Below, piece by piece: positions 39,785 to 49,500 of a stretch of 64,000 nucleotides of DNA. The notes under the pieces are model-generated. The model was not told the origin of the DNA and searched no databases. It saw only the letters and a list, made by a program, of their open reading frames with translations. The stretch spans positions 434,598 to 498,597 of the forward strand of contig CP134874.1 in NCBI GenBank assembly GCA_037318855.1. Direction: 5' to 3'. A program made the position numbers and the translations under genes. Positions within the stretch are counted from its first letter, which is position 1, and every line of letters begins with the position of its first letter. Source of the DNA: Candidatus Sedimenticola sp. (ex Thyasira tokunagai). GTDB lineage: Bacteria > Pseudomonadota > Gammaproteobacteria > Chromatiales > Chromatiaceae.

Positions 39785-39859
39785 TGGGGCGTCGCCAAGA
39801 GGTTAGGCATCGGGTTTTGATCCCGACATACGCAGGTTCGAATCCTGCCGCCCCAGCCA
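39785..39859 (+). tRNA. tRNA-Gln (TTG)
   Basis: 75 bases including an encoded CCA. The acceptor stem TGGGGCG pairs with CGCCCCA; the anticodon loop TTTTGAT carries TTG; the T-arm is CGCAGGTTCGAATCCTGCC. It begins 16 bases after ispE and is probably co-transcribed. Its 3' end is duplicated 182 bases downstream. Confidence 0.97.
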
Positions 39860-40093
39860 TATTTAAGAGATTGTGAGTTTGGAAATCTGCTGCGGCAGAG
39901 AAAAGTTCACAGGCTCAGGGCGGCAGGGTTCGAACCGTAAGAGGTTCGACATCTCCGCGTAGCGGAGTGAACGTTGGCTGCAAGCCAGCGGCCCCGAAGG
40001 GGCGAAGGGCGTAGCCCTGAGTCATCCTGCCGCCCCAGCCATATTTAAGAGACTACGGGCTCAGAAATCTGCTGCGGCAGAGGAAAGTGCCCA
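39842..40093. mobile_element. tRNA-Gln-associated structured element
   Basis: The tRNA 3' end and its following about 65 bases (39842-39908) recur at 40024-40088, a period of 182 bases. Between them, 39918-39936 is an antisense copy of the T-arm and 3' end (18 of 19 positions). Four small hairpins follow: 39953-39967, 39975-39987, 39991-40003 and 40006-40018, with loops GTA, GCA, GAA and GTA. The antisense copy can pair with the second tRNA 3' end, enclosing the hairpins. It is related in plan to the element behind tRNA-Tyr. A further short echo (CCCAGCCATATTT) begins at 40090. Confidence 0.85.
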
Positions 40094-40126
40094 GCCATAT
40101 TTTGAGTGTCTGTTGAGGGTCTCGCG

Positions 40127-49192: not shown

Positions 49193-49277
49193 GGAGGGGT
49201 TCCCGAGTGGCCAAAGGGATCAGACTGTAAATCTGACGGCTCAGCCTTCGGAGGTTCGAATCCTCCCCCCTCCACCA
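49193..49277 (+). tRNA. tRNA-Tyr (GTA)
   Basis: 85 bases including CCA, with the long variable arm of tRNA-Tyr. The acceptor GGAGGGG pairs with CCCCTCC; anticodon GTA lies in GACTGTAAATC. First gene of the tufB tRNA operon. Its 3' end is duplicated 179 bases downstream. Confidence 0.97.
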
Positions 49278-49500
49278 GATTTTAGAGGTGAATATTAGGT
49301 TCATCTCGGTAGTTTTACTCCCTCGGATGAGGGGAGGTTTCGAACCGATAAGAGGTTCGACAAAATTGCGACAGCAATTTTGAACGCCGTGCAGTTCGCG
49401 GCGACCCAGAGGGGCGGAGAGCCGGTAGGCTCGGAGTAATCCTCCCCCCTCCACCAGATTTTAGAGGTGAATGTTTGAGTTCATCTCGTAGTAATTTTCT
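49259..49500. mobile_element. tRNA-Tyr-associated structured element
   Basis: The tRNA 3' end and following flank (49259 to about 49320) recur from 49438 to about 49500. Between them, 49331-49346 is an antisense copy of the T-arm (15 of 16), followed by AAGAGGTTCGACA as in the tRNA-Gln element. Hairpins follow: AAAATTGC/GCAATTTT (49362-49381), CGCCG/CGGCG (49385-49403), CCC/GGG (49405-49413) and GAGCC/GGCTC (49419-49432). It ends GAGTAATCC running into the second tRNA 3' end. It lies inside a transcribed tRNA operon. Confidence 0.85.

Follow-up and report, generated by a model that had tools for sequence, protein, structure and literature searches.

The core of RtT elements at the tRNA-Gln and tRNA-Tyr genes of a Candidatus Sedimenticola genome: kept structure and a proposed insertion module

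Background

The RtT RNA family (Rfam RF00391), known as rttR at the E. coli tyrT and tyrV genes, is annotated mainly as a by-product of tyrT. Among other small elements, the Rickettsia palindromic elements are small palindromic insertions that are also found in-frame in coding genes, and single-strand transposition of the IS200/IS605 type leaves no target duplication, employs hairpins and depends on a fixed flanking word. PMC2965389 describes rtT-like BIMEs in enterobacteria, and covariation in RtT has already been published (PMC7657543, PMC8250186).

The window studied in this work is a stretch of 64,000 nucleotides from Candidatus Sedimenticola sp. (ex Thyasira tokunagai). The initial annotation of this DNA described a row of hairpins common to the elements that follow tRNA-Gln and tRNA-Tyr, in which the stem sequences differ and the pairing is kept, and read this as selection on structure. 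Its core point, i.e., covariation in RtT, was thus previously known and is confirmed here. We propose that the RtT core is probably a small structured insertion module that has mostly settled at tRNA loci.

Results

Two RtT elements in the window

The intact tRNA-Gln(TTG) gene, the source of the copied 3' end (39785..39859, + strand), and the intact tRNA-Tyr(GTA) gene (49193..49277, + strand), both located by ARAGORN and Rfam, each have an element 39 to 58 nt downstream, the distance varying with the start chosen. The element of tRNA-Gln (39907..40041, + strand) passes the Rfam model of RtT RNA with 54.3 bits against a gathering score of 45, and scores 96.2 bits with our own model R1, whose training set contained its sequence. 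The element of tRNA-Tyr (49317..49456, + strand) matches RF00391 over the full length at 35.8 bits, below the gathering score, and was placed by architecture and alignment; its R1 score of 98.8 bits (E 6.5e-25) likewise comes from a model with this sequence in the building set. R1 was made from 34 full elements and a second model, R2, from 51 cores, and both rank the two window elements, which were used for building, among the best in the window's genome. The layout is the same as at E. coli tyrT/tyrV. Both window elements are RtT RNAs, and the window thus holds new members of a known RNA family.

The 5' part of both elements consists of an inverted tRNA 3' end, a GAACC/GGTTC hairpin and a row of four hairpins, and the 3' part of ATCC and the remaining tRNA 3' end to CCA, beyond which lies a diverged copy of the DNA downstream of the tRNA. 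At tRNA-Gln, the outer helix P1 is formed by the inverted tRNA-Gln 3' end (39918..39927, + strand) and its partner at 40026-40035; it appears in the fold and covaries. Hairpin P2, GAACC/GGTTC (39932..39947, + strand), was located from the covariation alignment and the fold, and is followed by GA at 39948-39949. The inserted core, with P3-P6 and the linkers GAAC and GAGTC, occupies 39950..40023 (+ strand) between TTCGA and ATCC; it is the R2 match G000:C1:474545-474622 (64.6 bits), with the boundary set against the intact tRNA. Sequence reading and comparison with the tRNA put the copy of the tRNA-Gln 3' end, ATCC..CCA, at 40024..40041 (+ strand), matching its own tRNA at 18 of 19 positions. 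The Tyr core with P3-P6 (49361..49438, + strand) is seen in the fold and scores 62.2 bits with R2, in whose building it was used, and the copy of the tRNA-Tyr 3' end (49439..49456, + strand) is 19/19 identical.

Direct reading of the sequence bore out the stems of the initial annotation. The Gln stems CTCCGC/GCGGAG (39953-39958/39962-39967), GCCCC/GGGGC (39991-39995/39999-40003) and AGGGC/GCCCT (40006-40010/40014-40018) are matched in order by the Tyr stems AAAATTGC/GCAATTTT, CCC/GGG and GAGCC/GGCTC, and both elements have GAACG 3' of the first stem and end in GAGT(C/A)ATCC. Beyond that description, an extra hairpin lies between the first and second of these stems (TGGCT/AGCCA in Gln, CGCCG/CGGCG in Tyr), and the leading hairpin GAACC/GGTTC and the outer helix made from the tRNA 3' end and its inverted copy are also present.

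By eye, a hairpin with an inner TCTGC..GCAGA occurs 3' of tRNA-Gln (39862-39915) and again 3' of the Gln element (40042-40095); its outer stem is TGTGA/TCACA in one copy and GGGC/GCCC in the other, with the pairing kept. Inspection by eye of the window sequence between tRNA-Gln and the Gln element revealed no Rho-independent terminator.

Fold and covariation

Minimum-energy folds of both elements include the expected helices, the Tyr fold having an additional weak two-pair helix. Against dinucleotide shuffles the fold z was -7.4 for the Gln element and -6.0 for the Tyr element, and -3.8 and -4.5 for the isolated cores, with all 200 shuffles beaten in each comparison. The reverse complement of the Gln element gave a fold z of -6.8, near that of the forward strand, and therefore the fold alone cannot pick the strand.

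Two alignments, A1 (34 rows out of 46 candidates, hand-chosen for regularity) and A2 (51 core rows out of 73), were made by MAFFT without structure input and the structure was then counted on them. As the counted structure was drawn on the same alignments, it has an advantage over the slid controls in the following comparisons. A1, with 37 pairs and 1214 cells, had 90.5% standard pairs (shuffled 76.2%, slid 32-49%) and a covariation score of 0.364 (shuffled 0.140, with none of 500 shuffles as high; slid at most 0.097); two-sided changes were found in 175 cells against 56.9 and affected 25 of the 37 pairs. The corresponding values for A2 were 85.1% paired (shuffled 66.8%, slid at most 41.6%) and a covariation score of 0.382 (shuffled 0.136).

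A mirror test, which is blind to the structure and folds each segment at its midpoint, was applied to 111 non-redundant cores (129 places listed, 128 with sequence, 120 parsed and 8 not). It gave 0.637 against 0.378 for P3, 0.709 against 0.505 for P4 and 0.790 against 0.537 for P6, in agreement with covariation for three of the four hairpins; P5, third in the row (CCC..GGG), hardly varies and is thus uninformative in this test.

The claim of selection on structure, with differing stems and kept pairing, is therefore supported by both alignments and by the mirror test, and the check suggested with it, covariation on a larger alignment, gave a clear signal in 34 and in 51 sequences. G+C-rich stems form readily, and the hairpin row could in principle reflect chance or composition; this is hardly credible given fold z values of -3.8 to -7.4 and covariation far over the shuffled and slid controls, and we regard such an origin as refuted by A1 and A2. 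Part of the covariation of the outer helix should be read with caution, since it arises by tRNA copying: with a 3' side copied from the tRNA, the helix changes along with the tRNA in part for this reason alone.

Selection on structure is compatible with either RNA or single-stranded DNA as the folded molecule and does not say which. A decision on strand or on RNA versus DNA from wobble pairs was dropped, as the excess of G-T over A-C cells was modest (39 versus 24 and 35 versus 29) and too weak for this use. The idea of an RNase P minihelix was also rejected, the outer helix comprising only the T-stem and about three acceptor pairs, with further pairing not kept in A1.

Elements carry the 3' end of their own tRNA

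Of the 128 RF00391 places for which sequence was available, 103 are preceded on the same strand by a tRNA or tmRNA gene at most 700 nt upstream, and in 84 of these the distance is within 60 nt. The upstream genes of the 103 are Ser (45), Gln (32), Tyr (16), Arg (4), Glu (3), Val (1), Lys (1) and tmRNA (1). The element end is identical to the last 18 nt of its own tRNA in 76 of the 103, while comparison with other tRNAs gave a mean score of 6.6 and a maximum of 13 (maximum 11 within one genome, 110 pairs). The front arm also favours its own tRNA, with a mean rank of 0.81 of 1 against 0.5 by chance (97 elements), a preference that is clear in Gln and Tyr and weak in Ser and Arg. The end being a copy of the element's own tRNA, the Gln and Tyr outer helices differ in sequence yet stay paired. 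The element 30 nt downstream of the tmRNA gene matches the tmRNA poorly at its 3' end (11/19).

Precise junctions in interrupted tRNA copies

R1 found 12 copies in the window's genome at E of at most 0.001 and one weak match (E 0.31); each of the 12 is at a tRNA locus or at the remnant of a tRNA. Three of them interrupt a tRNA copy that precedes an intact tRNA-Ser, one in the T-loop, where the interrupted tRNA-Ser(CGA) copy is directly 5' of the intact gene, and a tandem pair in the D-loop. A survey of 56 places with an alignment filter of at least 18 nt on the left and 8 nt on the right against an intact partner left 12 interrupted tRNA copies. All 12 junctions are GA^A, with zero bases gained or lost, and none shows the target-site duplication that marks classical DNA transposons and MITEs. 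The core sits in the T-loop in five, in the D-loop in five (two of which are the tandem pair) and in the anticodon loop in two. Since GAA triplets in the examined Ser, Gln, Tyr and Arg tRNAs are mostly in loops (155/164), the loop position follows from the GA^A rule, and targeting of tRNA loops as such was withdrawn.

With regard to a self-splicing or archaeal-type tRNA intron, whose exact removal would restore a functional tRNA, the insertion is exact, but the interrupted copies are for the most part truncated and accompanied by an intact partner, and no intron family matched. The inverted repeats that flank the core are part of the target; terminal inverted repeats of the core's own, a further trait of transposons and MITEs, were not found by eye in the core sequences inspected. 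The core mostly begins with C and terminates in GA(A/G)T(A/C), judged by eye.

As a separate observation outside the window, a tRNA-Arg-like gene of the window's genome (L004:816-1280) is seemingly split in the anticodon region. The insert of several hundred bases may be a self-splicing intron, although it gave no Rfam match over the family cut-off.

Cores outside tRNA genes and their empty sites

In a Thioalkalivibrio genome R2 gave 28 matches, 9 with and 19 without a tRNA in the fetched stretch. Eight of these cores (one imperfect) split the palindrome CCCTCTCCCTCAGGGAGAGGG at GA^G and three split GTTACTTTTCTTG..CAAGAAAAGTAAC. Four of five Nitrococcus cores split a repeat ending (C/T)(C/G)GGA-ATCC or its diverged form. 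The non-tRNA targets read CCCTCTCCCTCAGGGA^GAGGG, CAAGCAAGA^AAAGTAAC and GCCGGA^ATCCAG, and the CCCTCTCCC sites are GA^G, departing from GA^A. The genomes that carry these cores also contain the targets in empty form, with 22 exact matches and 6 that differ by at most one letter; a control with the patterns reversed gave 0. A further 46 places comprise 25 with a same-strand tRNA at most 700 nt away and 21 with none, of which 6 have a tRNA-like end. Of 41 distinct junctions, 39 have GA on the left and 40 have A on the right, counts that are limited as evidence for GA^A by the part of the junction letters incorporated in R2. One core is nested in the P5 loop of another, and three in-frame cores (72, 72 and 75 nt) occur in a gene with a weak match to a ParB-type HTH. 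The flanks, when joined, fold better than shuffled ones in 85 of 111 tRNA-linked cases (z < -2) and in 12 of 21 dispersed cases (z <= -2).

Seven dispersed copies in one genome (G140) align over 225-491 nt around the core, and therefore a larger repeat has spread there, not the core alone; copies within REP-like palindromes may in a similar way have spread as one unit with the palindrome. Separately, the palindrome CTCCCTC(A/G)GGGAGAGGG lies at 14 places in the window's genome, 7 per strand, without a core, and has both empty and core-bearing copies in Thioalkalivibrio.

These sites bear on the explanation of RtT as a by-product of replication errors, in which template switching at tRNA palindromes or terminators makes the inverted and tandem copies and gene conversion through GGTTCGA and ATCC carries the core. 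The tandem units with their downstream flank duplicated, the inverted tRNA-end copy in front of the element and copying mainly inside one tRNA type agree with it. It leaves unexplained, however, why the core also occurs at sites that lack these two words, namely the D-loop and the anticodon loop of tRNAs, other palindromes and a coding gene, and we consider the explanation quite unlikely.

Distribution, gain and loss

The presence of RtT is patchy. RF00391 was found in 14 of 55 relatives and, across the class, in 52 of 276 genomes. R1 matched 85 of 397 genomes in a sample of the phylum; 54 of these share the class of the window's genome and 31 belong to other classes. For one subfamily, a DNA pattern occurs in at least 120 stretches; among the 80 matches listed are Alteromonas, Arsukibacterium, Dyella, Stenotrophomonas, Lysobacter, Serratia, Nitrococcus, Thioalkalivibrio and others. 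From 36 matching family genomes, 30 orthologous tRNA-Gln/prs loci were fetched, 29 with the tRNA, and RtT was present in 4 of the 29, one of which is the window's genome. In the genome from the same genus, RtT is missing at this locus and the words TTTAAGAG are retained after the tRNA. The absence from 25 of 29 loci implies that tRNA-Gln across the family does not need the element.

The classical view of RtT holds that it is a functional small RNA or a tRNA-processing element, with the released RNA acting and the spread in genomes incidental. Strong covariation and conserved unpaired linkers favour it, as do the Actinobacillus RtT RNAs detected by Northern blots (PMC4986893). Against these stand the absence beside tRNA-Gln in most of the family, same genus included, the 744 of 5426 complete E. 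coli genomes without an RtT match, and the many copies behind apparent terminators (by eye) or outside tRNA loci, and we find this view rather unlikely as an account of the element.

Nearest-neighbour cores share the tRNA type across genomes in 42 of 75 cases (expected 21.8) and lie at other tRNAs of the same genome in 6 of 40 (expected 0.8). As tRNA type outweighs genome, inheritance dominates. Strong spread within genomes was rejected, a first count of 22/63 having been inflated by unlabelled duplicates that the stricter count of 6/40 removed. In one genome the cores of the Gln and Val tRNAs are near-identical (0.95).

In addition, two RtT copies of tRNA-Lys (L004:1600-3133 and L002:1-1720) are separated by about 2.6 kb of sequence that includes a transposase-like reading frame. 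Similar sequence lies downstream of both copies, by eye an apparent segmental duplication.

Discussion

If the RtT core is a small insertion module, as we think probable, its 74-78 nt would enter exactly at GA^A without target duplication. The target would usually be capable of forming a hairpin, the outer part becoming P1, which closes the core, and the inner part being P2. In the window, that hairpin would be formed by the 3' end of the tRNA together with an inverted copy of it, the cut falling at TTCGA^ATCC; at other loci the target would be the T-, D- or anticodon loop of a tRNA or an unrelated palindromic repeat. After settling beside a tRNA, the element is in most cases inherited with it; tandem duplication occurs in some cases, and copying to a second tRNA within a genome is occasional. 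Compensatory change maintains the fold, and RtT RNA would arise through read-through of the tRNA transcript. The fold, its covariation, the copied tRNA end, the precise junctions, the empty sites and the patchy presence are all observed. Beyond these observations, the core itself would be mobile, moved by a putative enzyme, with RNA or single-stranded DNA as the presumed folded form; the genomes compared revealed neither an enzyme nor an excision product, nor any movement.

It is possible, if doubtful, that the core is the visible portion of an undescribed class of mobile element, i.e., a gene-less structured module of about 75 nt, inserted at GA^A without target duplication by a putative enzyme whose substrate would be RNA or single-stranded DNA. 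Its targets would be folded stretches such as tRNA loops, palindromes or even another core, and the module would then shape the local RNA. The literature searched on RtT spread, tRNA-end repeats and palindromic insertions gave no account of the insertion rule, with Bosl and Kersten 1991 taken from citing papers. As far as this literature goes, three points are new: the GA^A rule in tRNAs, the sites outside tRNAs for which empty versions exist, and the reading of RtT as a structured insertion. An insertion at an exact site would account for the many tRNA hosts, the own-tRNA ends and the turnover between close relatives, and would give a concrete place to seek the enzyme; the E. coli genomes without an RtT match offer a comparison of gain and loss within one species.

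Comparison with known systems

Classical DNA transposons and MITEs differ from the core in their target-site duplication and terminal inverted repeats. The core resembles IS200/IS605-type elements in the lack of target duplication, the hairpins and the fixed flanking word, and differs from them in that our analysis turned up no transposase or element ends. Rickettsia palindromic elements, likened here by description only, are similar insertions in a different lineage. Two further Rfam families scored below gathering: AaHKsRNA22, which spans the same Gln hairpins (38.1 bits against 39.8), and sX4, which matches over the Tyr tRNA and, of the element itself, only the front. REP and BIME sequences share with the core the nature of short palindromic repeats; the core differs in splitting REP-like palindromes as an insertion, BIMEs being set beside it by published description only. 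With RtT as known from E. coli tyrT/tyrV, the elements share the fold, the copy of the tRNA 3' end, the position after the tRNA, the tandem copies and the invariant words GAACC..GGTTCGA, CCCGNAGGG and GAGTA-ATCC. In contrast to RtT centred on tyrT, the elements described here stand beside Ser, Gln, Tyr, Arg, Glu, Val and Lys tRNAs and one tmRNA, with a tRNA-Pro site in the window's genome, and the core is found outside tRNA loci as well.
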